From the NCBI GenBank assembly GCA_016183985.1, contig JACPDN010000006.1:1302001-1366000 (forward strand): 64,000 nucleotides of DNA. The letters run 5' to 3'. How positions within the stretch are numbered: position 1 is the first letter of the stretch; every line of letters begins with the position of its first letter. Positions 20,497 through 33,643 of the stretch are shown here, one piece after another. The notes below the pieces were generated by a model. That model did no database searches, was not told the origin of the DNA, and saw nothing but the letters and a program-made list of their open reading frames with translations. The position numbers and the translations under genes were made by a program. The stretch comes from Pseudomonadota bacterium (GTDB taxonomy: Bacteria > Pseudomonadota > Alphaproteobacteria > Dongiales > Dongiaceae).

Positions 20497-22074
20497 ATGG
20501 CGTGGATCGATGTGGCGGCGGCCGAAGAACTGGCCGCAGCTGGCAAACTGGTGGTGCGGCATGAGGGGCGACAGATCCTCCTGCTCGACACGCCGGCCGG
20601 CATCTTTGCCACCGTCAATCGCTGTCCGCATGAAGGCTATCCCTTGCGCGAAGGCAGCTTGAGCGGCGATGCCAAGAGCTGCGTACTGACCTGCAACTGG
20701 CATAATTGGAAATTCGACCTCACGACCGGCGAGACATTGGTCGGCGGCGACAGACTGCGCCGCTTTCCGATCCGGCGCAAAGAGGGCCGCATCGAGATCG
20801 ACATCGTGCCGGATGACATCCAGGAACGAAGATCAGCCATTCTCGTCGGGTTGGAAAAGGCCCTTTACGACGATGATGCCCAGCGCCAGTGCCGCGAGGC
20901 CGCGCGACTGATGCAGTTGAAGCTCGACCCGCTCGACGCCGTGCGCCGGGCGATTGCCTGGTCGAGCGATCGGTTGGAATTCGGCACCACGCATGCGATC
21001 GGCGCGGCGCCGGATTGGCTGGCACTGGCCCAGAATGTGCCGGCGGAGGATTGCCTGGTGGCGCTGGGCGAGATCCTGGCGCATCTCTCGGACGATGCGC
21101 GGGACCGGACGCGCTATCCCTTTGCGCCCGGCGAAGCGCCCTGGAACGAAGAGCAGTTTGCCGCCGCCATCGAAGCACAGGATGAGCCAAGCGCCATCCG
21201 CCTGTTGCGCGGTGGGCTTTCCCAGCCGCTGTCGTCGGATAATTGGCGGCGCGTGCTGGCCAAGGCGGCACTCAGCCATTATGCCGATTTCGGCCATGCG
21301 CTGATCTATGCCGTGAAGGTTGTCGACCTCATCGATACACTGGGGCGTGACGTGGCGGAGCCCTTGCTCTGCGCCTATGTCCGCGCCCTTTGTTACAGCA
21401 CGCGCGAAGACCTCTTGCCCGAATTCCGCAGCTATGCCGACGAATTGCGGCGCTGGGGCCAGGCCGATGAAGGCCTCGCCTCGATCGGTGCCGACATGCT
21501 GCGCCGGGGTTCCGCCAAATCGACCATGGCCATGATCCGGGGCTGGTCGGCCTATGCCGGGCGCCAGGTGATTTGGCCGGCCTTGCTCGAGGCCGCGGCC
21601 TGGCAGTTGCTGCATGCGGACGAGGCGCGGTTCTGGAGTATCGACCAGCGCCTGGCCGACAACGCCAACTGGCTGGACCTCACCCACGCGCTGACCTTCG
21701 CCGATGCAGGCAGGCAGGCTGCGGCCTTGTCGCCGGAATTGTGGCCGGCGATCCTGCTGCAACTCGCCTGCTTCATCGGCCGCAACAGCGCGTTCATCGA
21801 TGCGGAATGTGACGTGGCGCACTACCAGGTCGCCGATCCCGGCACCTTCTGGCGCGAAGCGCGGGCCGGGCTGCTCGACCACGGGCGCGGCCGTTTCATC
21901 ATTTCGGCCCATCTGGCCAAGACCTTACTGGCGGCCGAGCGCCTGGCGGCAACCCAGCCCAACCTAGCGCCACTCCTTGCCAGCGCACTCAACCGCTTCA
22001 CGACGGCGCCGATCAAGGAGCGTCATACCCGCAGGACCGCGCGGCAGATGCTGGATCTGGTGGCACAGGAATAA
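20497..22074 (+). CDS. Rieske [2Fe-2S] protein with long uncharacterised C-terminal region
   Basis: The 525-residue protein starts at ATG 20497 after GGAGGG. Residues 1-105 form a Rieske domain, with cluster ligands Cys43 and His45 in NRCPHEGYPL and Cys66 and His69 in LTCNWHNWKFD. The remaining 420 residues are rich in Ala, Leu, Arg and Trp and look alpha-helical. They carry no motif I recognise; a Phe/Trp/His-rich stretch around YFHALIYAVKVVD-type sequence lies mid-protein. There is no signal peptide or obvious membrane helix. This is not a ring-hydroxylating oxygenase alpha subunit, because the mononuclear iron motif is not seen. It may be an electron carrier fused to a binding or scaffold domain. 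Confidence 0.82.
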   Translation: MAWIDVAAAEELAAAGKLVVRHEGRQILLLDTPAGIFATVNRCPHEGYPLREGSLSGDAKSCVLTCNWHNWKFDLTTGETLVGGDRLRRFPIRRKEGRIEIDIVPDDIQERRSAILVGLEKALYDDDAQRQCREAARLMQLKLDPLDAVRRAIAWSSDRLEFGTTHAIGAAPDWLALAQNVPAEDCLVALGEILAHLSDDARDRTRYPFAPGEAPWNEEQFAAAIEAQDEPSAIRLLRGGLSQPLSSDNWRRVLAKAALSHYADFGHALIYAVKVVDLIDTLGRDVAEPLLCAYVRALCYSTREDLLPEFRSYADELRRWGQADEGLASIGADMLRRGSAKSTMAMIRGWSAYAGRQVIWPALLEAAAWQLLHADEARFWSIDQRLADNANWLDLTHALTFADAGRQAAALSPELWPAILLQLACFIGRNSAFIDAECDVAHYQVADPGTFWREARAGLLDHGRGRFIISAHLAKTLLAAERLAATQPNLAPLLASALNRFTTAPIKERHTRRTARQMLDLVAQE

Positions 22075-22196
22075 GGCTCTAAAGCGCCGCCCCGGGAAAG
22101 GTTCATGACATAATCGGTGGCGCGTGATGGCGCGCACTGGACGGTCTTACGGCTCCCGCCTATCTTTTCGGGCAGGGACAACATCGTTCATCCATC

Positions 22197-22700
22197 ATGA
22201 TCACTGACCCATCACTCCTTGCCTTGCTGGCAGGACCGATCGCCATATCGGCCGCCAGCCGCGATGCCGGCTTGCGCCCCAGCGTCGCGCATGCCTATGG
22301 TTGCCGCGTCGTTAGCGGCGGCAGGCAGCTGCGCGTCTTCATCTTGCGCGATGAAGCACGCCAGCTCCTCGCCGACATCACCGCGAGCGGCGAGGTGGCG
22401 ACTGTCTATAGCGATGTACGCTCATTCCGCTCCCTGCAGATCAAAGGCCGGGATGCCACGATCGTGTCGTTCGATGCCGAGGATGCTGCCGCGCAATTGG
22501 TGCACCATCGCATCACGGCCGAGGAATTGGTGGCATTGGGATATGCGGCGCCGCTCGCGCACGGTTATTTCAGCGTGCCGCACAAGGCTGATTTCGCGAC
22601 CGTCATCTTCACGCCGCATGACATCTTCCAGCAGACACCTGGACCAGGTGCCGGCGACCGATTGAATGCCGCCAGCGCAACGGGCGGGGCCCGGAAATGA
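22197..22700 (+). CDS. PNPOx-like flavin split-barrel protein
   Basis: A 167-residue protein whose N-terminal half follows the split-barrel fold of the pyridoxamine-phosphate-oxidase/general stress protein family. The strands read GPIAISAASRDAGLRPSVA, RQLRVFILRDEARQLL and GEVATVYSDVRSFRSLQIKG. The C-terminal half carries a helical pair containing ITAEELVALGY. The ligand may be FMN, F420-like or heme; the sequence does not decide. Its last codons overlap the next gene by four bases, and that gene encodes another protein of the same fold, so they are translationally coupled and may form a heterodimer. Confidence 0.72.
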   Translation: MITDPSLLALLAGPIAISAASRDAGLRPSVAHAYGCRVVSGGRQLRVFILRDEARQLLADITASGEVATVYSDVRSFRSLQIKGRDATIVSFDAEDAAAQLVHHRITAEELVALGYAAPLAHGYFSVPHKADFATVIFTPHDIFQQTPGPGAGDRLNAASATGGARK

Positions 22701-24037
22701 CCCGTATCGCCCTTGCCACTCTTAGAGCCTCGCTCGAAGGTGCCATTCCATCCGAGATCGCAACCTGCGACGCGACCGGCGTGCCGAATGTCAGCGTCAT
22801 TTCCGACGTGCATTACGTCGACGCCAATCACGTCGCCATTTCGTACCAGTTCTTCAGCAAGACCCGCGCCAATATCCTGGCCAATCCGCGCGCCACGGTC
22901 CTGCTGAAGCATCCCGCCACTTGCGCGCAATACCGGCTGTATCTCAGCTATCTGCGCACAGAGACGGAAGGGGCGTTGTTCGAAACCATGCGCGCAAAAC
23001 TCGCCGGCATAGCGTCGCATGAAGGCATGTCCGGCATTTTCAGACTATTGGGGGCTGACATCTATCACGTCGAAGAGGCTGAAATCGTGCGTGCCGACAT
23101 GCTGCCTTTGCCGTCGCCACACGCACCGCTCCTGGCTGCCTTGCGCCAGACCCTGCCGCGCCTGCGCGCGGCGCGCGATCTCGACAGTCTGGTCGCGACC
23201 CTGCTTTCATCCCTGCGCGGCGACTTCCGCCTGCCGCATGTCATGCTGCTGATGGCCGATGCGGCTTGCGGCAAGCTTTATACGGTCGCCAGCCAAGGTT
23301 ATGAGGAATCCGGTGTCGGCGCCGAGATCCTGCCCGGCCAAGGTGTCATCGGCGTCGCCGCCCGCGAGCAGACGCCCATCCGCATCGCCCATGCCACACG
23401 CGAATATCTGTACGGCCGCGCCATCCGCGATGCCCTGCGCGCAAGCCCCATGGCAGCGCGGCTGGAAACGGAAATTCCCCTGCCAGGCCTCACCGACAGC
23501 GGCAGCCAGATTGCGGTGCCGATCCTCAATGGCACCGAACTGATGGGCGTCATCTATGCCGAAAGCCCCGAAGCTGGCCGTTTCGGCTATGACGAGGAAG
23601 ACGCGCTGATGATCCTCGCCAGTGCCGCCGGCATCGCCATCCAGGAATTGCAAGGCGATGTCGAGGAAATCGCTGCCCCGGCCGCGCCTGAGATCGCGGC
23701 AGAGTCAGGCGCACCTCTCGTCATTCGTCATTACGGCACCGACGATAGCGTCTTCATTGACGACGAATACGTGATCAAAGGCGTCGCCGGCTCCATCCTC
23801 TGGTTCCTGCTGGGCGAATATGCCCGGACCGGACGGGTCGAATTCAGCAACAAGGAATTGCGGCTCGCCCCGCAAATCCGTCTGCCGGAATTCTCGGAGA
23901 ACCTTGAGGCACGCCTCATCCTGCTGCGCCGGCGCCTTGCCGAACGCAGCCAGCAATTGACCCTCGACAAGGCCGGGCGCGGCCGTTTCCGCCTGACCTT
24001 GGCCCGGCCGATACAACTGATCGAAGCCGAGAGCTGA
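22697..24037 (+). CDS. PNPOx-like + GAF protein with possible winged-helix C-terminus
   Basis: The 446-residue protein combines three parts. Residues 1-140 form a split-barrel domain (EIATCDATGVPNVSVIS, HVAISYQFFSKTRANI). Residues about 160-315 form a GAF domain (LLMADAACGKLYTVASQGYE, with GQGVIGVAAREQTPIRI). The last 110 residues resemble an OmpR-type winged helix, with LWFLLGEYARTGRVEFSNKEL, NLEARLILLRRRLAE and GRGRFRLTLARP. The combination suggests a soluble redox- or ligand-sensing regulator partnered with the preceding gene. DNA binding is inference only. It precedes the CACHE-receptor gene by 158 bases. Confidence 0.75.
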   Translation: MTRIALATLRASLEGAIPSEIATCDATGVPNVSVISDVHYVDANHVAISYQFFSKTRANILANPRATVLLKHPATCAQYRLYLSYLRTETEGALFETMRAKLAGIASHEGMSGIFRLLGADIYHVEEAEIVRADMLPLPSPHAPLLAALRQTLPRLRAARDLDSLVATLLSSLRGDFRLPHVMLLMADAACGKLYTVASQGYEESGVGAEILPGQGVIGVAAREQTPIRIAHATREYLYGRAIRDALRASPMAARLETEIPLPGLTDSGSQIAVPILNGTELMGVIYAESPEAGRFGYDEEDALMILASAAGIAIQELQGDVEEIAAPAAPEIAAESGAPLVIRHYGTDDSVFIDDEYVIKGVAGSILWFLLGEYARTGRVEFSNKELRLAPQIRLPEFSENLEARLILLRRRLAERSQQLTLDKAGRGRFRLTLARPIQLIEAES

Positions 24038-24195
24038 ACGATATTTCGTCATAGCCGGGCCGAACATCTTAACGGCCGGCTTTCGGAACTGCTCCTTCCC
24101 CTGATGCGTTTCACCCGCGCTTGCCACCGCTGCGCGCCGACGCCTAGTATGCAACCGGCAGCTGCGTTGCGGGTGAACCATCACGGGGAATCGCC

Positions 24196-26580
24196 ATGAC
24201 CGCCAATGCCGCGAGACCTGGCAACATCAGGGCCGACGAGGAAATCGTCGATATTTCCCCGTCCCAGACGAGCAGCCGGCAGCGACGGCAAGTCTTGATC
24301 CGGATGGGCGTGCCCATCCTTGCCTTGGCATTGGTCATAGCCGCCATTCTCGGCATCGCCCTCTATTCCCATCATGCCAATCGCCAGGGCGCTCTCGCCC
24401 TCTCCGACGACCTTCTGGCAACGCTGGACGCACAGATCGCCCAGCGCGTCTCGGCATTCCTGGATCCTTGCGCGCGCACGCTCAGAATCATGACCGAGAT
24501 CGCGGCAAAGACGCCGCCCAGCGAGCGAGGCTCCGTTGCCGAACGCTTCGCCGGCAGCGTGCTTGACGAGATTCCGCAAATGGCCGCCTTCTATTTCGGC
24601 GATGACGACGGCAACTTCCTGATGATGCGTCGCGACAAGAACGGCACCGAGACCAAGGAGATCATGAACGCGGCAGATGCGCGCCGCGTCATTCTGACCT
24701 TTCATGACACGAATGGTCGCCTTCTGTCGCAGCGCGAGGATCCCGCCGACACTTTCGACCCGCGCACCCGGCCGTGGTACAAGGGTGCCCTGGCCAGTGA
24801 CGGCATCCATTGGACGGGCGTCTACATTTTCTTCACGGACAAGAAGCCGGGGATTACGGTCTCCGACCGGGTCAAGGATACGGACGGGCGGCAACGCGTC
24901 TTCGGCGTCGACATCACGCTGGAGCAATTGTCCCAGTTCCTCTCATCGCTGGAGATCGGTGCGACCGGCCGCGCCATCATCATCGACAATGACGGGCGCC
25001 TCATCGCCGTGCCGGATGCAGAGAACATGCTGCATCCCACGGGCGACGATTTCGTCCCGCCGCGGCTCGACGAAATCGGCGACCCTGTCCTCACCGGCGC
25101 CTATGATCGTTTCCGTGTCGAAGGCCAGGGCAAGCGCGTCATCGACATTGACGGCGTGCGCTATGTGACCAGCGTTTCGCCGCTGAAAGGCGATGGGCGC
25201 CAGTGGTGGGTCATGATCGTGGTGCCGGAGGAGGACTTCACCGGCTTTGTGATGAGCAATAGCCGCAAGGGCCTCGCCATGTCGCTCGTCATCGTGCTGT
25301 CGGTCGCAGCGCTTGCCGGATTGCTTGTCTTTCAGGGATTGAAATCCGATCGCGCCGTGCGCCGCTTGATGGCGGAAAGCGGCACGATTTCTCATTACGG
25401 AGCCATCTATGCCGAGATCACGCATCAGACGAGTCTCAGCGACAAAGCTGATCACCTGTTCCCGCCGATTCTCACCGAATCCATTGTCGAGGTAGCGCGG
25501 GCGGCGCGCGCCAGTATCTGGCATGCGGGGCCGGACTTCCTGACCCTGCGGTGTGACGACAGCTTCGAACGCGCGGGCCGGGGCCATGCCGGTGGCTTCC
25601 AATTGCATCAGCGGGAAGTGCCGACCTTTTTCGCCGCTTTGCGCGCCGGCGATGAAGTCGACGTCGCGGACGCCGGCATGGATGCGCGCACCCAGCAGTT
25701 CCACGGCATGATCATGCGGCCGCTCGGGACGAAATCCCTGATCGTCCTGCCCTTGCGCAATCACGCTGGCACCGTCGGCGTCATCTGTATCGAGAACGCC
25801 AAACCACAACCCGGCACGCGGGCCTTTCTGCGTACCGTCGCCGGCATTGCCGCCTTGCGCCTCGATGACCTCGACGAGGCGGCCGCGGAAGATCGCATAC
25901 CGACGGAAATTCGTGGCGCCCGGGCCGCCAGCCCCACCAGGCTGGCGGTGGCGGATCTTGGCGAACCGGATGTGCTACCGGCCAATCTGGCGACGGCGCG
26001 TTACCGTCAGGTTGCCGCGATGATGCTGCAATTGACCGATCCCAGCATGCTGGCGACCGGCGACAGCGCCACTGGCAATTGCGTGCTCGATAACGTCGTC
26101 CAGCTGGTGCGCGAGGAGGCGGCGCGACATGGCATCACCTACCTGAAGCTCGCCGGGCAACAGATCGTCGCCGCCACAGGGTATGAAGGCGATGCCGAAG
26201 ATGCCATGCCGCGCATGGCCGCCTTCGCCATTGCCTTGCGTGAAAGCTGCAGTGAGATTTTTGACGATTTGAGCCGCAAGCGGCAGGGGCAACGGCTCGA
26301 TTTCTTCATCGGCCTCGATTTTGGCAATTGCTTTGGCGGCAATCTCGGCAGTGACCAGCCTGCGGCATCCGAATCATTCGACCAGCGCCCATTCAATCTC
26401 TGGGGCGGTTGCATCGAAACGGCCGGGATCATGGCGAACAGCGCACCGCCGGCCGGCATCCAGGCCAGCGAGGCCGCCTATGCCGGCTTGCGCCTCGATT
26501 TCCTCTTCCGGCCGCGCGGCAGCTTCTATCAGCCCGGCGTCGGCGACGCGCGCACCTATGTTCTGGCCGGTCAGTTGTGA
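24196..26580 (+). CDS. dCACHE-GAF receptor with degenerate class III cyclase domain
   Basis: The 794-residue membrane receptor has a first transmembrane helix at about 35-58, a periplasmic double-CACHE-like domain to about 345 (with FDPRTRPWYKGALA and VFGVDITLEQLSQFL), and a second helix at about 352-375. A GAF domain spans about 395-560, and residues 600-794 resemble an adenylate/guanylate cyclase domain. In that domain the GD of the second metal site reads GQ (YLKLAGQQ). The segment WGGCIETAGIMANS stands where WGDxVNxAxRxxS is expected, so the Asn and Arg that stabilise the transition state are missing. It is probably catalytically inactive and works by binding. It leads the MCE operon, with mlaE starting 13 bases later. 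Confidence 0.82.
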   Translation: MTANAARPGNIRADEEIVDISPSQTSSRQRRQVLIRMGVPILALALVIAAILGIALYSHHANRQGALALSDDLLATLDAQIAQRVSAFLDPCARTLRIMTEIAAKTPPSERGSVAERFAGSVLDEIPQMAAFYFGDDDGNFLMMRRDKNGTETKEIMNAADARRVILTFHDTNGRLLSQREDPADTFDPRTRPWYKGALASDGIHWTGVYIFFTDKKPGITVSDRVKDTDGRQRVFGVDITLEQLSQFLSSLEIGATGRAIIIDNDGRLIAVPDAENMLHPTGDDFVPPRLDEIGDPVLTGAYDRFRVEGQGKRVIDIDGVRYVTSVSPLKGDGRQWWVMIVVPEEDFTGFVMSNSRKGLAMSLVIVLSVAALAGLLVFQGLKSDRAVRRLMAESGTISHYGAIYAEITHQTSLSDKADHLFPPILTESIVEVARAARASIWHAGPDFLTLRCDDSFERAGRGHAGGFQLHQREVPTFFAALRAGDEVDVADAGMDARTQQFHGMIMRPLGTKSLIVLPLRNHAGTVGVICIENAKPQPGTRAFLRTVAGIAALRLDDLDEAAAEDRIPTEIRGARAASPTRLAVADLGEPDVLPANLATARYRQVAAMMLQLTDPSMLATGDSATGNCVLDNVVQLVREEAARHGITYLKLAGQQIVAATGYEGDAEDAMPRMAAFAIALRESCSEIFDDLSRKRQGQRLDFFIGLDFGNCFGGNLGSDQPAASESFDQRPFNLWGGCIETAGIMANSAPPAGIQASEAAYAGLRLDFLFRPRGSFYQPGVGDARTYVLAGQL

Positions 26581-26593
26581 GAGGGCACCTTAG

Positions 26594-27433
26594 ATGAGCC
26601 GTGCCGGCACCGAAGAATCCGCCCTGCCGACGCATGCCGCCTGGCGCTGGTTCCGTTTGGGGCTGGCATGGCTCGGCCGTTCGACGCGGCGGCGCCTGCA
26701 CTTCGCCTTGACCTTGGCCTCGCTATCCGGCGGCGTCATTCTGGAAGCGTTCCGTTGGCACGGCTGGCGCCGGCCGGTCCGATCGGAGTTCTGGCGCAGC
26801 CTTCGTATCGCTCTTGCCGGCGGCCTCATCGCCACGACTTTCGTCGCCGGCCTCATCGGCATCGGCATGGTGTTTCAGGCGCTCTACTGGCTGCGGATTG
26901 CCGGTCAGGAGGATATTGCAGGCACCATCCTCGTAACCGTGCTCCTGCGGGAGGTGACGCCACTGCTCATCGGCGTCATTCTGCTAGGGCGCAGCGGCAC
27001 GGTCATTCTCTCGGAACTGGGCCATCTGCGGATTTCCGGGCAGAGCCGTGCCGTTCGTGCGCAGGGCCTCGATCCCTTTCTGCTTCTGGTCATGCCGCGC
27101 GGGATTGCCGGCGCCTTTGCCGCCTATACGCTCGGCGTCGTGTTCCTGCTGGTTGCCCTGCTGATCGGCTTCGCCACGGCAAGCTTGCTGGGCGGCCTCA
27201 GCGGATCACTCTGGGCCTTTCTTGACCGGTTCCTCAGGGCAACTGCGCCGATCGATTTCATCATCTTTCCGGTGAAGATGTTGATGATCGGCCTGACCGT
27301 CACCACCACCACCGCGCTTACCGCCTTGTCCGCACACGAATCCGACAGCAGTGGCCGGCTGATCGCGCGCGGCTTCATGCGCGGCATGCTCGTCATCATG
27401 GTGGTGAGCGGCCTGCTGAGCCTGGCTGCGTGA
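26594..27433 (+). CDS. MlaE-like ABC permease of an MCE lipid-transport system
   Basis: A 279-residue inner-membrane permease of the MlaE family, which pairs with MCE proteins in phospholipid trafficking. It has an N-terminal interfacial segment and then about five hydrophobic stretches, with GLIGIGMVFQALYWL, a TPLLIGVILLGRSGTVILSEL stretch and SRAVRAQGLDPFLLLVMPR in the usual order. It is preceded by the pseudo-cyclase receptor and followed seven bases later by the ATPase-like gene. Family membership is good; the direction and identity of any transported lipid are unknown. Confidence 0.88.
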   Translation: MSRAGTEESALPTHAAWRWFRLGLAWLGRSTRRRLHFALTLASLSGGVILEAFRWHGWRRPVRSEFWRSLRIALAGGLIATTFVAGLIGIGMVFQALYWLRIAGQEDIAGTILVTVLLREVTPLLIGVILLGRSGTVILSELGHLRISGQSRAVRAQGLDPFLLLVMPRGIAGAFAAYTLGVVFLLVALLIGFATASLLGGLSGSLWAFLDRFLRATAPIDFIIFPVKMLMIGLTVTTTTALTALSAHESDSSGRLIARGFMRGMLVIMVVSGLLSLAA

Positions 27434-27440
27434 GGGCACC

Positions 27441-28121
27441 ATGACATCGATCCTCACCCTCACCAATGTGATCCCTACCGCGCTTTTCGGAGCTGCGGGC
27501 CGGACGGGCATCGATTTCAACCTTGAGCCCGGCGAACTGGCGCTGGTCAATGCACGCGATCTGGGGCTGGTGGGCGCGTTGGGCGATCTTTGCTGCGGCC
27601 TGAAGGCGATCGATACCGGCACCGTGCGATTCCTCGATCAGGACTGGACGACCCAGCCGCGCGATCGCGCCGATGCCTTGCGCGGCCATATCGGCCGCGT
27701 CCTGGCGCATCCCGCCTGGCTCGATTTTCTCAGTGCCGCCGAGAACATTCTGCTGGGGAGGCTCTATCATACCCGCCGCGCCACCGAGACCTTGCGGACC
27801 GAGGCGGCCGAACTTGCCCGCCATTTCGGCATGCCCGGGCTGCCGACCGGGCAGATATCCGATTTGTCGCCCGACGATCTCACACGCGCCGGCCTGGTGC
27901 GCGCTTTTCTTGGCGCGCCCAGGCTGGTCATTCTGGAAAGTCCGGTGCAGGGAGCCTTCAGCGCCATCGTACCGGCGCTGCTCAACCGTCTTGCCATGCT
28001 GCGGGATTCGGGTGGCGCGGCGCTTTGGGTGACGCGCAGCCGGCTGGTCTGGGACAACCGGACACTTCCCGCCAGCCATCGCTGGCGGCTCGACCATACC
28101 GGCTTGACGCGGATAGGATGA
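27441..28121 (+). CDS. MlaF-like ABC ATPase homologue lacking all nucleotide-binding motifs
   Basis: The 226-residue protein aligns by order and length with MlaF-type ATPases, but each catalytic motif is lost. The Walker A position (36-46) reads VNARDLGLVGA with no GKS/T. The Q-loop Gln is replaced by Ala89 in GRVLAHPAW. The signature reads LSPDD at 142-146 instead of LSGGQ. Walker B ends LVILESP (Glu166-Ser167) instead of LLDEP, and the H-loop His is Arg199 in LWVTRS. The frame is intact and codon use matches its neighbours, so it looks selected for rather than decaying. It sits between the permease and MCE genes, five bases before the latter. Confidence 0.8.
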   Translation: MTSILTLTNVIPTALFGAAGRTGIDFNLEPGELALVNARDLGLVGALGDLCCGLKAIDTGTVRFLDQDWTTQPRDRADALRGHIGRVLAHPAWLDFLSAAENILLGRLYHTRRATETLRTEAAELARHFGMPGLPTGQISDLSPDDLTRAGLVRAFLGAPRLVILESPVQGAFSAIVPALLNRLAMLRDSGGAALWVTRSRLVWDNRTLPASHRWRLDHTGLTRIG

Positions 28122-28125
28122 ATTA

Positions 28126-29127
28126 ATGCGGGGATTGCGCCACACGGATGAGTGGGTCGGGCTTCTGGTCCTCGCGGCCTTTGGCGTGCTGCTGGCCGCG
28201 ATCCTACAGGCCGGCGTCTTGCGCGATTGGTTCAAGCCGACAGAAGAGCTGCGCCTCATTCTACCGGAAAGTGGTGTCGCCGGGCTGGTGGCCGGCGCCG
28301 ACGTCGAAGTGCTGGGTACCAAGGCCGGCACCGTCGAGCGCATCGTGATCGACCCGCGGCAGCAGATGAACGCCATCATCCGCCTCGACGAGCAAGCCAC
28401 GGCTTTCATCCGCCGCGACAGCACCGCTATCATCCGCCGCCGCTTCGGTGTTGCCGGTGCGGCCTTTGTCGACATCTCCCGCGGCAACGAGGACGAGCTC
28501 GACTGGTCCTACGCCGTCATCACCGCCACCACCGAACGTGCCCCCACCGACAGCGTCAGCGCGCTGATCGATGAGGTGCGCGAGAAAGTCTTTCCGATCC
28601 TCGACAATACCGGCCGTGCCACCAAGGCCCTCGCTGAGATCGTCGAACGCGTCAATCGCGGTGAGGGCAATCTCGGCGAATTGCTGGTCGATGACAGCAT
28701 GATGCGCGAGGTCGACAAGACCGTCGCCGATGCCGGCGAGGTCGTCAATTCGTTGAATGCACTGATGGTCGAGCTACAGGCCGCCGCCGGAGACGCACGG
28801 GCGCTCACGGGCAAGCTCAATGCCGAGAATGGCGTACCCTCCGTCGTCGCCAAGGGACGCGATACGCTGCAGCAGGCTGAGGCCGTGCTCGCGGATATGC
28901 ATGGCATGATGGCGAGCCTCCAGGAAACCGCCAAGCATGCGCCAGGTATCGCCAGCAATCTTGAAGGCAGCACGGCCAACCTCCCGGCATTGCTCTCGCA
29001 GGTGCAGGTGACCCTCTCAAAGCTCGATCAATTGATCGTACAGCTGCGCAGTTCCTGGCTGTTCGGGGGCGGCAACGCGCCAATCCAGCAGCCCAAGCAA
29101 TTTTCTCCCTCGCAGGTACTGCCATGA
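28126..29127 (+). CDS. MCE-domain (MlaD-like) substrate-binding protein
   Basis: The 333-residue protein is anchored by one N-terminal helix (residues 8-28, LLVLAAFGVLLAAIL). It has a single MCE domain at about 38-125 (SGVAGLVAGADVEVLGTKAG, RFGVAGAAFVDISRG) and then a long helical region rich in Ala, Leu, Asp and Glu to about 310. The tail contains LRSSWLFGGG. MCE proteins form periplasmic hexamers that carry lipids between membranes. The stop overlaps the TPR lipoprotein start by four bases. Confidence 0.9.
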   Translation: MRGLRHTDEWVGLLVLAAFGVLLAAILQAGVLRDWFKPTEELRLILPESGVAGLVAGADVEVLGTKAGTVERIVIDPRQQMNAIIRLDEQATAFIRRDSTAIIRRRFGVAGAAFVDISRGNEDELDWSYAVITATTERAPTDSVSALIDEVREKVFPILDNTGRATKALAEIVERVNRGEGNLGELLVDDSMMREVDKTVADAGEVVNSLNALMVELQAAAGDARALTGKLNAENGVPSVVAKGRDTLQQAEAVLADMHGMMASLQETAKHAPGIASNLEGSTANLPALLSQVQVTLSKLDQLIVQLRSSWLFGGGNAPIQQPKQFSPSQVLP

Positions 29128-30008
29128 GGAACGCTGCATGCGGATTGCTTCTGGCTCTCGCCGCCTGCGGCGGCAATGCGCCGCCCCCAAGCCCGCCGCA
29201 GGATCAGACGCTGGTCCGCTATCAGGAGGCTGGCCATATCGCCTATGACCTCGACCGTCCCCAGGAGGCCGTGCGGCAATTCGAGGAGGCGCTTCGTCAG
29301 GCGGAGGCGCGCGATGATCTCCCCGCCATTGCCGAACTCAGCTTCAATCTGGCCGTGGCGCAGTTGCGGGCGAACGTCCCACAAGATGCCCTCGCCACCA
29401 CGACGCGCATCCGCGCTGAGCTCGAGCGTCGCGGTGCCCCACCCTCGCCGGCCCTGCTTCTTGCCGAAGCCACGGCCCTCTATCGGACAGGCGATGCAAA
29501 GGCGGCGGATGCCTTGGCGGGCGAGATCGAGACCGCTGCCGACCGGGATGTGGCCGCAGGGGCCAGCTTCCTGCGCGGCCTCATTGGCGACGAGACCGAG
29601 AATACCGATGCGCTGCAGGCCGCCTATCAGCGTTTGGGCGCCACCAATACACCGATCCGGACCGCCGACCGTCAGGAATTGGAGGCCCGTCTCGCCTTGC
29701 GCCAGGGCGATCCAGCTCGGGCCCGCAGCGCGGCGCTGCAATCCGCCACGACGCGCCAGGAGCTTCTCGATTACCGCGGCATGGCTCGGTCCTTGTCGGT
29801 GGCTGGCAAGGCGGCGGAGCAGGCCGGTGACAAAGAGGTTGCAGCCGATTTCTATTTGCGCGCGGGGCGCAGCGCGGCGGCGCAAGGAGATCCGGCAACG
29901 GCGCGACCCTGGCTGGAAAAGACACGGCTGCTGTCGCACGATCCAGCCATCGACGAAGCCGCCGAGCGCGCGCTTGCGACGCTCGGCGATCCGTCCCCGA
30001 CGCCTTAG
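29124..30008 (+). CDS. TPR-repeat lipoprotein of the MCE operon
   Basis: The 294-residue protein starts with a lipoprotein signal whose lipobox LAAC puts the lipidated residue at Cys15, followed by a Pro-rich linker. The rest is helical with TPR-like repeats (GHIAYDLDRPQEAVRQFEEA, LALRQGDPARARSAAL, and a C-terminal repeat containing AAAQGDPATARPW). It is coupled by a four-base overlap to the MCE gene, where other MCE operons often carry a different auxiliary lipoprotein. It is probably a periplasmic or outer-membrane partner of the complex. It is the last gene of the operon, which converges with the hemerythrin gene. Confidence 0.83.
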   Translation: MRNAACGLLLALAACGGNAPPPSPPQDQTLVRYQEAGHIAYDLDRPQEAVRQFEEALRQAEARDDLPAIAELSFNLAVAQLRANVPQDALATTTRIRAELERRGAPPSPALLLAEATALYRTGDAKAADALAGEIETAADRDVAAGASFLRGLIGDETENTDALQAAYQRLGATNTPIRTADRQELEARLALRQGDPARARSAALQSATTRQELLDYRGMARSLSVAGKAAEQAGDKEVAADFYLRAGRSAAAQGDPATARPWLEKTRLLSHDPAIDEAAERALATLGDPSPTP

Positions 30009-30018
30009 GCGTAGTAGC

Positions 30019-30810
30019 TTAGGCGAGATCGGCCACGAGCGCTGCCCGTTCGACCTCGCTCAAATGCGGCTTCACCATTTCCAGCACGCCGCCGAAGAGT
30101 TCGGCCGGCATCGCCGCCTGCATGCCGCGCATCATGACGGCGCGCTGTTGCCGGGTGACATTGGGCAGAATCCAGCGCAGCCAGGTCATCATGCGCTCCG
30201 GCTTGATATGTGCGTGGATCTGGTGCTCGACCGCCAGGAGATCGGCATCGGAATAATGCCGCCACAGCAGCTCCGTATTGGCGCTTTCCTCGATCTCCAT
30301 ATGGGCGAAATTCTCGGCGACGAAGCTGGCGAGCAGGCGGTAGAGCACCTTGAAGGCACGCTCCCGCATCAGCGGTTCGGCCGTCGCCGCTTCATCGAGG
30401 CGCGTCTTCAGATCGGCAATCGTCTTGACGTGATGCATATGATCGTCGGCACAGGCATGTGACGAACCGGGAACGACCTTCTCCATCGCGGTGTGGAGAA
30501 AGTTGTTCTCGTGCTCGAGATGCTCGCGGCAGAGCTGGAGCAAATCGGCGACGGCAGCCGGCACTTCCGTGCGATCGACGGCACTGTCGAGATCGACCCG
30601 GCCAAGGCGCACCAGGGCGTCACTCATCGCCGCGCGCAGCCCCTTATGGACAAAGTGATAGATTTCGTGCCGCTCAGGCGCGGCGGCGGCATCATTTGCC
30701 GCCATGCGGGAGATGAAATCGGGGGCGAACGCGGCCTGGGTGACAGCGCGGGGCTGATAGCCCGGAACCTCTGGGAGGGCCTTGGCTTCGGCCTGGGTGC
30801 GAGCGTTCAT
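30019..30810 (-). CDS. Hemerythrin-like HHE domain protein
   Basis: The 263-residue protein has a central four-helix hemerythrin/HHE domain at about 60-190. The di-iron-type ligands appear in REIYHFVHKGLRAAM-like sequence, CREHLEHENNFLHTAME, DDHMHHVKTIADL and FVAENFAHMEIEES. The C-terminal 70 residues are an added helical region. Start ATG 30810 is preferred to 30849 because an AAGGA sits eight bases upstream. Proteins of this class bind oxygen or nitric oxide, or serve in iron-sulfur repair. A CRP-like palindrome lies about 140 bases upstream, between this gene and the kinase gene. Confidence 0.85.
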   Translation of the reverse strand: MNARTQAEAKALPEVPGYQPRAVTQAAFAPDFISRMAANDAAAAPERHEIYHFVHKGLRAAMSDALVRLGRVDLDSAVDRTEVPAAVADLLQLCREHLEHENNFLHTAMEKVVPGSSHACADDHMHHVKTIADLKTRLDEAATAEPLMRERAFKVLYRLLASFVAENFAHMEIEESANTELLWRHYSDADLLAVEHQIHAHIKPERMMTWLRWILPNVTRQQRAVMMRGMQAAMPAELFGGVLEMVKPHLSEVERAALVADLA

Positions 30811-30945
30811 GTCGATATCCTTGCGTTGGGGAGCCGGCTGGTTTTCCATGCCGGGAACGCCCAGAAACTGCGCCTGAGCGAGGCTCAGCGCATGCTAATT
30901 TCCCGCTCAGGAACCGTAAGTTTTCGCTAAGACAGCGCGATCAGC

Positions 30946-30959
30946 GTGACGATCGTCAC
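30946..30959. promoter_or_regulatory. CRP-like palindrome (GTGA-N6-TCAC)
   Basis: GTGACGATCGTCAC is a perfect 14-base palindrome matching the core of CRP-type sites. It lies between the end of the PetR-linked kinase gene and the hemerythrin gene, roughly 137-150 bases before the latter's start. It could control the hemerythrin gene; no matching promoter was pinned down. Confidence 0.4.
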
Positions 30960-30969
30960 AGCGCAAAGG

Positions 30970-32325
30970 TTAAAGCGGCAGGCGCAGTACCGCGCGCAGA
31001 CCGCCGCCCGGCGCATCCGAGAGAACCAGATCGCCACCGTGGCCACGGATGATGTCGCGGGCGATGGTCAGGCCAAGACCCGTTCCACCGGTTTCCTGAT
31101 TGCGCGATTGCTCCAGGCGGAAGAAGGGCTTGAAGACATCTTCGCGCGCATCGGCCGGTATGCCCGGGCCGTCGTCATCGACCATGACTTCGACATGGCG
31201 GGGTTTGAGCGCCATGGTGACGCCAATGGCACCGGCATAGCGATGGGCATTGCCGATCACATTGTCGAGCGCACGGCGGAAGGCGTCGCGCCGCAAGGGC
31301 ACTACGACGCTTCGTTCCGGCAGCCTGAGGTTGATCTTGGCACCCTGCCGGCGCGCATCGCCCGCGACATCGGCCACGACCTCGGCAAGATCCGTGGGCG
31401 CCGGCTGCTCCATGCCTTCGCCGCGTGCAAAGGCCAGATAGGCGCCGATCATGCGCTCCATATCGGCGACATCTTTCTTGAGATCCGCAATCTCAGGATT
31501 GTCGCCCATCATGGCAAGCTGCAACTTCATGCGCGTGAGCGGCGTCCTGAGATCGTGGCTGACACCGGCCAGCATCTCGGTGCGCTGCACGATCTGGCGG
31601 CGGATGCGGTTGCGCATCTGGTTGAAAGCCTGACCTGCCAGCACGACTTCTGTGGCGCCGTCTGTGCGAAAATCCTGCACCTCGCGCCCCTTGCCGAAAT
31701 CGTCGGCCGCTTGCGCCAGCCGCTTGATCGGCTTCACCTGGTTGCGCATGAACAGCGTGGCGACGGCCAGCAGCGCCAAGGATGTCCCTACCATCCACAG
31801 CAGAAAGACATAAGTGGTGGAACTGAAGAGGCGCCGGCGCAGCACGACCACATGCAGCACGCCATCGGCCAGCTGGACATGGATCTCGATGTATTTCTCG
31901 AGGCTGCGGCTATCGATAATGAAGGGGCGTTCCACCAGATCCTCCAGCGCCTTGGCAAGCTGCCGGTCGACCAGGTTCTGGCGCATGATGGTGGGATCGT
32001 TGGGCAGGATCTCGCCCGGCTTGAACTCCAGCTGCAGGCCCATATCGTTCTTGGCGGTCTGGAAAAGGGCTTTGATGGCCACTTCGTCTTCGCCCGGCGC
32101 GCTGCCCGGGCGCGGCATCAGGCGCGTGACGGCACCGATCTCGCCGGCCACCGATTGCGCCAGGCGCTTGGTGACTGTGTTCCAATGGCTGTCATAGAAG
32201 ACCCAAGCAGAGATCACCTGCAGCAGCACGATGGGTGTCACAATGATCAGGATCGAACGGCCGAGCAGCGAGCGCGGCAACACGCGCTCGATCCCGACCA
32301 GCCATTCCTGCAGCACTGCATTCAT
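30970..32325 (-). CDS. EnvZ-type sensor histidine kinase, partner of PetR-like regulator
   Basis: The 451-residue inner-membrane kinase has an N-terminal transmembrane helix (IIVTPIVLLQVISAWVFY), a periplasmic domain to about 160, a second helix, and a HAMP domain (QVKPIKRLAQAADDFGKG). The HisKA domain carries His257 in GVSHDLRTPLTRMK. The HATPase domain contains NVIGNAHRYAG, DDDGPGIP and GGTGLGLTIARD. It starts six bases after the stop of the response-regulator gene, so the two form a cognate pair at the end of the petP-petR operon. The signal is unknown. Confidence 0.93.
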   Translation of the reverse strand: MNAVLQEWLVGIERVLPRSLLGRSILIIVTPIVLLQVISAWVFYDSHWNTVTKRLAQSVAGEIGAVTRLMPRPGSAPGEDEVAIKALFQTAKNDMGLQLEFKPGEILPNDPTIMRQNLVDRQLAKALEDLVERPFIIDSRSLEKYIEIHVQLADGVLHVVVLRRRLFSSTTYVFLLWMVGTSLALLAVATLFMRNQVKPIKRLAQAADDFGKGREVQDFRTDGATEVVLAGQAFNQMRNRIRRQIVQRTEMLAGVSHDLRTPLTRMKLQLAMMGDNPEIADLKKDVADMERMIGAYLAFARGEGMEQPAPTDLAEVVADVAGDARRQGAKINLRLPERSVVVPLRRDAFRRALDNVIGNAHRYAGAIGVTMALKPRHVEVMVDDDGPGIPADAREDVFKPFFRLEQSRNQETGGTGLGLTIARDIIRGHGGDLVLSDAPGGGLRAVLRLPL

Positions 32326-32331
32326 CGGCGA

Positions 32332-33072
32332 TCAATCCGGCCTGAGGACATAACCAATGCCGCGCACGGTCTGCAGGTAGCGCGGAAAGCGCGGGTCGTC
32401 CTCGATCTTGCGCCGCAGACGCGTCACCTGAACATCAATGAGGCGCGAAGCACCTGTTTCGACCGCATTGCCTTCTGGCACTTCCGATGCGAGGTCGTCG
32501 CCTTCACCGCTCGTGCGGGTCTGCAGCTCATCGCGGCTGACCGGCTGGCCAGCGCGGCGCGCCAGCATGGTGAGAAGCTCGCTTTCGCCTTCCGTGAGAT
32601 GCACGATCTCGCCGGCCTTATAAAGACGCCGCCGTTCCAGCTCGAAGGCAAAGGTGCCGAATTTGACCGTGCTCGCCGCCATCGGCACCGGCACGCTGCG
32701 CGGCTGCGCGCGTTTCAGAATCGCGTTGATGCGCAGCACCAGTTCCTTCGGCTCGAACGGCTTGGCAAGATAGTCGTCGGCCCCCGTCTCCAAACCATTG
32801 ATGCGGTCCTGCACTTCACCCATGGCGGTGAGCAGCAGGATCGGCACGTTGTTTTCCTGGCGCAGAGACAGGGTGAGGTCGAGGCCGCTTTCCCCCGGCA
32901 TCATGATGTCGAGAACCAGAAGATCGAACGAGATGCTCTTCAGCTTGAGTCGCGCATCAGCCGCATCCGTCGCCACGGTCACGCGAAATCCCTGCTCGCC
33001 CAGATAGCGTGCGATGAGGTCGCGCAGGCGCTTGTCGTCATCGACGACCAGGATATGGGCATGGGCGCTCAT
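32332..33072 (-). CDS. petR: OmpR-family response regulator, PetR-like
   Basis: With ATG 33072 as start the protein has 246 residues: a receiver domain with phospho-acceptor Asp55 in LVLDIMMPGESG and a winged-helix DNA-binding domain ending RGIGYVLRPD. The open frame extends upstream into the MarR gene, but without receiver similarity. It starts four bases after the MarR-like stop, the arrangement described for petP-petR of Rhodobacter capsulatus, where PetR is needed for cytochrome bc1 expression. That role is inferred here; the bc1 genes are not in the window. Confidence 0.9.
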   Translation of the reverse strand: MSAHAHILVVDDDKRLRDLIARYLGEQGFRVTVATDAADARLKLKSISFDLLVLDIMMPGESGLDLTLSLRQENNVPILLLTAMGEVQDRINGLETGADDYLAKPFEPKELVLRINAILKRAQPRSVPVPMAASTVKFGTFAFELERRRLYKAGEIVHLTEGESELLTMLARRAGQPVSRDELQTRTSGEGDDLASEVPEGNAVETGASRLIDVQVTRLRRKIEDDPRFPRYLQTVRGIGYVLRPD

Positions 33073-33076
33073 GGCT

Positions 33077-33643
33077 TTAGCGCGATCCGCCAGAACCTGC
33101 GCCACCCGCCCCGCCACCGCTTCCAGATGTGGTTCCCGGCGAGGAGCCGGGCCCGCCTGGGTTCTGCATGCGGAAACGACCCCGGTCCTCTTCGTTGATG
33201 AGCCCGAGAAGAACCTTTTTGAAGCCTTCCACGGCCTCGGCTCCCGCTGCCTTATAGGCGCGGGCGACAAGGGCGCGCTGATCCTCGGTCAATCGCCGTT
33301 CCAGCTCCGCACCCTTGTCGGTGAGGCTCAAGAGCCGCTGCCGCCGGTCGGTGGTGCCGGGCCGCTGGACGATGAAGCCTTCCCGCACCAATTGGGACAG
33401 GACACGGCTGAGGCTCTGCTTGGTGATCTTCAGAATGTCGAGGAGATCCGAAACGGTCATGCCCGGATTCCGTCCAACGAAATAAATCACCCTGTGATGG
33501 GCGCGGCCGAAATTATAGGCAGCCAATGTCTGGTCGGCCCGGGCGGTAAAATCGCGATAGCCGAAAAACAGCAACTCGATTCCCTGCCGCAATTCATCGT
33601 CTCGCAGGAACAAGGGGTTAGGTACTGATTTCAAATCAGGCAT
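33077..33643 (-). CDS. petP: MarR-family regulator, PetP-like
   Basis: The 188-residue winged-helix regulator has the stretch IELLFFGYRDFTARAD, then GRAHHRVIYFVGRNPGMTV, and a recognition region ITKQSLSRVLSQLVREGF. This combination is typical of PetP-like proteins that precede an OmpR-type regulator. The last 30 residues are a Gly/Ser-rich low-complexity tail. It heads a three-gene operon with the PetR-like regulator and kinase. Upstream is an AT-rich 100-base gap shared with ilvE, where autoregulatory sites could lie. Confidence 0.88.
   Translation of the reverse strand: MPDLKSVPNPLFLRDDELRQGIELLFFGYRDFTARADQTLAAYNFGRAHHRVIYFVGRNPGMTVSDLLDILKITKQSLSRVLSQLVREGFIVQRPGTTDRRQRLLSLTDKGAELERRLTEDQRALVARAYKAAGAEAVEGFKKVLLGLINEEDRGRFRMQNPGGPGSSPGTTSGSGGGAGGAGSGGSR

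Follow-up and report, generated by a model that had tools for sequence, protein, structure and literature searches.

Can a lipid transporter of ABC architecture operate when the ATPase homologue encoded with it lacks the catalytic motifs and the receptor encoded ahead of it carries a degenerate cyclase domain? The question is raised by five co-directional genes on the + strand at positions 24196-30008 of the window, which is the whole 64,000-nucleotide stretch of DNA analysed here. They form one operon and encode, in order, a dCACHE-GAF-pseudocyclase receptor, an MlaE-type permease, an ABC-ATPase homologue, an MCE protein and a TPR lipoprotein, with intergenic spacings of 13, 7, 4 and -4 bases; all features of the operon given below lie on this strand. 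The receptor (24196..26580, 794 aa) matches Pfam dCache_1 (3.4e-20), GAF (1.4e-9) and Guanylate_cyc (7e-8). The divergent permease (26594..27433, 279 aa) matches the MlaE family (PF02405, 2.3e-32), and the ATPase homologue (27441..28121, 226 aa) gives a weak ABC_tran match (1.6e-5). The MCE protein (28126..29127, 333 aa), which has one TM segment and one MCE barrel, matches MlaD/MCE (PF02470, 1.4e-8), and the lipoprotein (29124..30008, 294 aa) matches TPR_12 (8.7e-10). The layout and spacings claimed in the earlier note agree exactly with these ORF coordinates, and the Pfam matches bear out the gene identities that it had assigned. Its description of the receptor as "fused genetically" to the transporter stands in the sense of a single operon; no fused ORF was noticed.

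The five-gene arrangement recurs in about 60 named loci, from Dongia, Rhodospirillaceae-type relatives, Acetobacter, Komagataeibacter, Asaia, Commensalibacter and Rubritepida. The scan with an MCE alignment, in which each species was represented by one genome, returned 60 loci from Dongia deserti, Rhodospirillaceae-type MAGs and the Acetobacteraceae, the last including Acetobacter, Komagataeibacter, Gluconacetobacter, Asaia, Commensalibacter, Rubritepida and Plastoroseomonas. Wherever contig ends allow the order to be read, the receptor gene always comes first, followed by those for the permease, the ATPase, the MCE protein and the TPR protein; a few draft loci have broken frames. The earlier proposal had been made to depend on a conserved gene order, and such an order is what these roughly 60 loci display. 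The gene trees are congruent, with 24 of 27 supported MCE splits also present in the ATPase tree, and of the 385 genomes of the class, the ATPase and MCE profiles each match 5, which are the same for both. In the Acetobacteraceae-type family, the MCE gene was found in 92 of 299 genomes, and comparison of the two lists by hand places the ATPase in 91 of these (90 clear matches and a 91st that is truncated beside the MCE gene). The sole MCE-bearing genome with no ATPase match, G662, is 77% complete, and its MCE match is partial. Because the same order and the same losses occur in dozens of genomes, the observation is not a product of chance. Split or stop-containing MCE genes were seen at G535:C1:302182-303606 and G673:C48:29412-31065; these operons are apparently in decay, each in a single lineage.

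Six congeners of the window's genus lack the operon. In the alignment with the closest congener (G006, locus L220), blastn jumps from window position 24037 to 30020, with 31 bp between the flanks; the corresponding jumps are 23994 to 30021 in L221 and 24030 to 30989 in L222. The segment that is present or absent as a whole is 24038..30019, which comprises the five genes and 158 bp upstream and forms the gap in the closest congener alignment. No flanking gene is common across the clades. The clean empty site in congeners and the lack of a shared flanking gene together indicate that the five genes are the unit. The GC content of the operon is 64.6%, compared with 62.8% for the rest of the window. 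This value lies at the top of the local range and is not clearly foreign, and a foreign origin argued from base composition was set aside. The repeat search returned nothing resembling a mobile element, and promoter-like and terminator-like matches were no commoner than in shuffled sequence.

The neighbouring genes have features of their own. In the product of the gene directly upstream (22697-24037), Pfam assigns a PNPOx-type flavin domain joined to a GAF domain, with about 110 residues besides; the gene is present in five of six congeners (one partial), independently of the operon. Two genes precede it (20497-22700). The first encodes a protein of 525 aa that begins with a Rieske [2Fe-2S] domain and has more than 400 residues with no Pfam match; the second, of 167 aa and with no match of any kind, overlaps the PNPOx-GAF gene by 4 bases. 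Directly 3´ of the operon lies a convergent gene (30019-30849) whose product looks hemerythrin-like by eye and has no Pfam match over the cut-off; this gene seems to be absent, along with the operon, from congener G005. Farther downstream, an open frame of 750 codons (30946-33198) runs antisense to histidine kinase and response regulator genes and is probably a high-GC shadow frame.

The ATPase homologue of the window has lost each of the motifs on which ABC catalysis is usually recognised. In the degenerate P-loop (aa 38-46, ARDLGLVGA; 27552..27578), the Walker A Lys is replaced with Val44, and the Q-loop Gln is replaced with Ala89. The ABC signature LSGGQ reads LSPDD (aa 142-146; 27864..27878), the Asp and Glu of Walker B (aa 162-167, LVILES; 27924..27941) are replaced with Glu166 and Ser167, and the H-loop His is replaced with Arg199 (28035..28037). 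The same losses extend through the family in an alignment of 62 homologues: the Walker A Lys and LSGGQ are kept in none, the Walker B Asp position is Glu in all 62, and the H-loop position is never His and is Arg in 51. Thus, the catalytic set of Walker A GxxxxGK[ST], LSGGQ, Walker B Asp-Glu and H-loop His is absent from the family. New residues recur at some of these sites. The fifth signature position (146), which is Met in canonical MlaF, is Asp or Glu in 62/62, and the P-loop carries R39 in 52/62 and D40 in 50/62. A pattern search of 37 further loci found no Walker A, signature or Walker B pattern in any of them. The earlier note had described a motif-less ATPase from the window protein and had allowed that orthologues might keep Walker A/B; neither motif survives in the window protein or in any of the 62 homologues and 37 further loci.

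Loss of the motifs has not been accompanied by loss of the fold. The AF2 model of the ATPase homologue has a mean pLDDT of 92.3 and shows a complete NBD, in which both the RecA-like and the helical subdomain are present (Foldseek TM-scores reach 0.85; VIA Z 25.4). Its fold matches include LolD (Z 25.4 over 219 residues) and MlaF (Z 23.6 over about 218 residues). MlaF and LolD/FtsE are both candidate origins of the NBD. LolD, FtsE and MacB rank slightly above MlaF in both sequence and fold; the median scores are 49.0 bits to MlaF and 50.2 bits to other NBDs, in a comparison in which the LolD set is incomplete and one "other" entry adjoins MlaE. The median dN/dS of the ATPase homologue is 0.096 over 63 close pairs, to which the estimate is confined since distant pairs are saturated. 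As the protein is under purifying selection (about 0.1) and is predicted to fold as an NBD, it is, on this sequence evidence, a conserved pseudoenzyme and not a gene in decay.

The permease scores well over the curated PF02405 cut-off (112.7 bits against 22.5), and the closest solved structures are those of MlaE-type permeases in MlaFEDB complexes (7ch8, 6ic4, 6z5u and 6xbd among them). The coupling helix of MlaE is located between TM2 and TM3 (PMC7790496). We take the motif at aa 141-161 (27014..27076) as the putative coupling helix of the window permease, in which R152 stands in place of the canonical Asp. At this site, 46 of 46 canonical MlaE proteins have Asp, whereas Arg, Lys or His is found in 59 of 60 operon permeases. 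Changes are also found on the side of the ATPase homologue. Position 93, near the Q-loop (27717..27719), is Trp in 62/62 homologues and Leu in 45/45 canonical MlaF proteins, position 148, an invariant Lys after the signature of canonical MlaF, is mostly Ala or Leu, and the acidic residue at 146 noted above belongs to the same set of changes. These substitutions suggest a re-wired, dedicated permease-NBD pair, in which the two subunits would be in contact. The charge-reversed permease motif and the distinctive residues of its own NBD argue against a simple use of canonical MlaF.

The receptor comprises an N-terminal TM segment, a periplasmic dCACHE domain, a second TM segment, a cytoplasmic GAF domain and a C-terminal class III cyclase-like domain. 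The dCache_1 domain is over its cut-off (73.1 bits against 45), and the flanking TM segments were placed by eye. Orthologues are 47-51% identical to the window receptor in the Dongia relatives and 28% identical in the Commensalibacter type. The C-terminal domain (about aa 597-793; 25984..26574) matches the adenylate cyclase structures 4p2f, 7yz9 and 1yk9, and it is related to the class III adenylate cyclases (4p2f, 7yz9) at the level of the sequence family. Unlike in these enzymes, the transition-state residues are lost in every receptor examined. In the window protein, the second metal Asp is replaced with Gln, the substrate Asp with Gly, and the transition-state Asn and Arg with Glu and Ile, respectively. 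Among 57 aligned receptors, the Asn and the Arg are each kept in none and the second metal Asp in two, so the residue set of class III cyclases is not found. The first metal site is Asp in 47 of 57 receptors by MAFFT, although a profile alignment puts that Asp a few residues away. The absence of the transition-state pair from 57/57 sequences supports the earlier view of a receptor whose output is probably inactive. In two receptors, L045 and L050, the second metal site still has a GD motif and the transition-state pair is missing, a pattern that suggests stepwise loss of the cyclase residues.

The MCE protein exceeds the curated PF02470 cut-off (35.3 bits against 25.1), and its model contains the MCE barrel. 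The AF2 model, whose overall confidence is low and in particular is low outside the barrel and the TM segment, places a helix at 7-28, strands at 41-136 and helices at 140-313. About 195 residues follow the barrel and are mostly predicted to be helical. Published criteria for true Mla systems are MlaC and MlaA homologues in the genome and an MlaD whose helical C-terminal part is shorter than about 50 residues (PMC7790496). By the criterion for MlaD, the window system would not be a true Mla because of its long predicted helical C-terminus. The TPR protein has a lipobox (LAAC-G) and is predicted to be lipidated at C15, a cysteine that is invariant in 19 aligned sequences.

How might such a set of proteins work? 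The earlier note inferred that energy must come from another ATPase, or that the complex is a passive or signal-gated conduit. On balance, we favour a conserved MCE-type complex of an MlaE permease, a long-stalk MCE protein and a pseudoenzyme ABC NBD, which would act as a receptor-gated lipid conduit in which the pseudo-ATPase has a structural or allosteric role. The complex probably works without burning ATP of its own, although an NBD that lacks the motifs may still bind nucleotide, as some pseudoenzymes do. In this model, the pseudo-ATPase would fill its role by docking on the permease, and the dCACHE-GAF receptor would sense a periplasmic ligand or the state of the envelope. The pseudo-cyclase domain would relay the signal by protein contact and not by a cyclic nucleotide, and the relayed signal would gate the passage of lipids between the membranes. 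The cargo is presumed to be lipid from the homology to MCE and MlaE proteins. The predicted stalk of the MCE protein may bridge the periplasm (compare PMC10665443 and PMC12436622), and the TPR lipoprotein would organise the outer end of the complex. Receptor and transporter may be in contact, as conservation of the operon suggests. The lipids would follow a gradient or depend on a driving force other than the NBD of the operon. A more specific version, in which an ABC-architecture lipid transporter dispenses with ATP altogether as a receptor-gated passive bridge, with the former ATPase and the former class III cyclase both serving as allosteric parts, is plausible but is proposed tentatively, at somewhat less than an even chance.

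Among the alternatives, the one that survives best is that a canonical MlaF from another MCE operon drives the permease, with the pseudo-ATPase as a regulator or as the degenerate half of a mixed pair. A partial parallel exists in mycobacteria, where one MceG serves several Mce complexes. The search for a second intact MlaF that the earlier note had called for found three in the window genome (G000), so energy could in principle be supplied in trans. All 16 operon genomes tested hold 2-3 further MlaE copies, and the adjoining MlaF keeps its motifs in most cases with a readable neighbour, the loci being short; motifs are likewise intact in the MlaF proteins encoded beside those MlaE proteins of the class that come closest to the operon permeases. 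However, each intact MlaF of the window genome adjoins an MlaE permease of its own, and a canonical MlaF should fit poorly to a permease with a charge reversal at a canonically invariant site and a partner NBD with invariants of its own. These closest MlaE proteins from outside the operon reach no more than 97 bits, compared with 360-390 bits for the operon permeases, and no intermediate between the two was found in the class sample scored. We regard powering in trans as unlikely, though as the most serious competitor of the receptor-gated conduit.

Somewhat less probable still is a complex that transports nothing, in which permease, NBD and MCE protein are a static scaffold or tether between the membranes and the receptor reports on its state. 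The loss of both catalytic outputs and the conservation of the long MCE stalk and the lipoprotein would agree with such a role. Nevertheless, the permease and the MCE protein are the most constrained components (median dN/dS 0.060 and 0.058 over the same 63 close pairs), which fits transport better than a bare tether.

That the NBD still uses nucleotide at a site so far unrecognised, such as one around R39-D40, E166 and R199, is very improbable. E166 is present in 62/62 homologues, and R39 (in the codons for aa 38-40, 27552-27560) and R199 (28035-28037) tend to co-occur, with both in 50 homologues, neither in 9 and a mixed state in 3. But the family has lost the Walker A Lys, the signature and the H-loop His, and some of its members lack R39, D40 or R199, whereas the residues of an active site should be shared by all. 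The two Arg residues may form a salt-bridge network in an empty nucleotide pocket; shared ancestry may also explain their co-occurrence. Plasmid sequences that matched the ATPase in tblastn were rejected: in the two contexts read, they proved to be common ABC ATPases, about 500 aa long, from operons for solute uptake. The least credible reading, a non-functional operon in the course of loss, can appeal to the absence from six congeners and to the broken genes of a few loci, those of G535 and G673 among them, but is largely refuted by the motif alignment and dN/dS, with open frames under purifying selection and a motif loss that is old and uniform across two families and not scattered.

Compared with known systems, the operon most resembles MlaFEDB of E. 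coli, A. baumannii and P. aeruginosa in encoding an MlaE-family permease, an MCE protein and an ABC NBD together. It differs from MlaFEDB by the absence of the ATPase motifs and of a STAS (MlaB) gene and by the addition of a long helical MCE C-terminus, a receptor and a TPR lipoprotein. In the ABC exporters TmrAB and TM287/288, one site is degenerate, with altered catalytic residues in an NBD; these proteins still bind ATP, and the altered NBD has an active partner. The NBD of the window, in contrast, lacks every motif, and the operon encodes no active partner. PqiABC and LetAB use the membrane proteins PqiA and LetA and not an MlaE permease with an NBD, and their units are not known to include a receptor. 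They have no NBD subunit, whereas the window operon keeps one. In the consulted sections of PMC12436622, PqiABC and LetAB are cited as cases of MCE transport without an ABC ATPase. The elongated Mla of Veillonella parvula (PMC10665443) and Mpc of Brucella abortus (PMC12436622) likewise combine an MlaE-type permease with an MCE protein of extended length, which is proposed to span the envelope. The sections consulted term the V. parvula MlaF conserved and present Brucella MpcF as an MlaF homologue, the ABC ATPase of a transporter that is well conserved (PMC12436622); they describe neither a pseudo-ATPase nor a dCACHE receptor, unlike what is found in the window operon.

A search of open-licence papers turned up no MCE operon described as having a pseudo-ATPase and no prior account of an inactive-output receptor joined to an inactive-motor transporter, a combination that the earlier note had thought undescribed. 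To our knowledge, no MCE transporter has previously been shown to have a conserved pseudoenzyme as its NBD, and this one would be the first. The arrangement of the genes would also link a sensor to lipid traffic. How MCE and Mla systems energise lipid transport, and in which direction the lipids flow, has long been debated, and a motor-dead MlaE/MCE system in cultivable Acetobacter and Komagataeibacter offers a natural experiment on ATP-free MCE transport.
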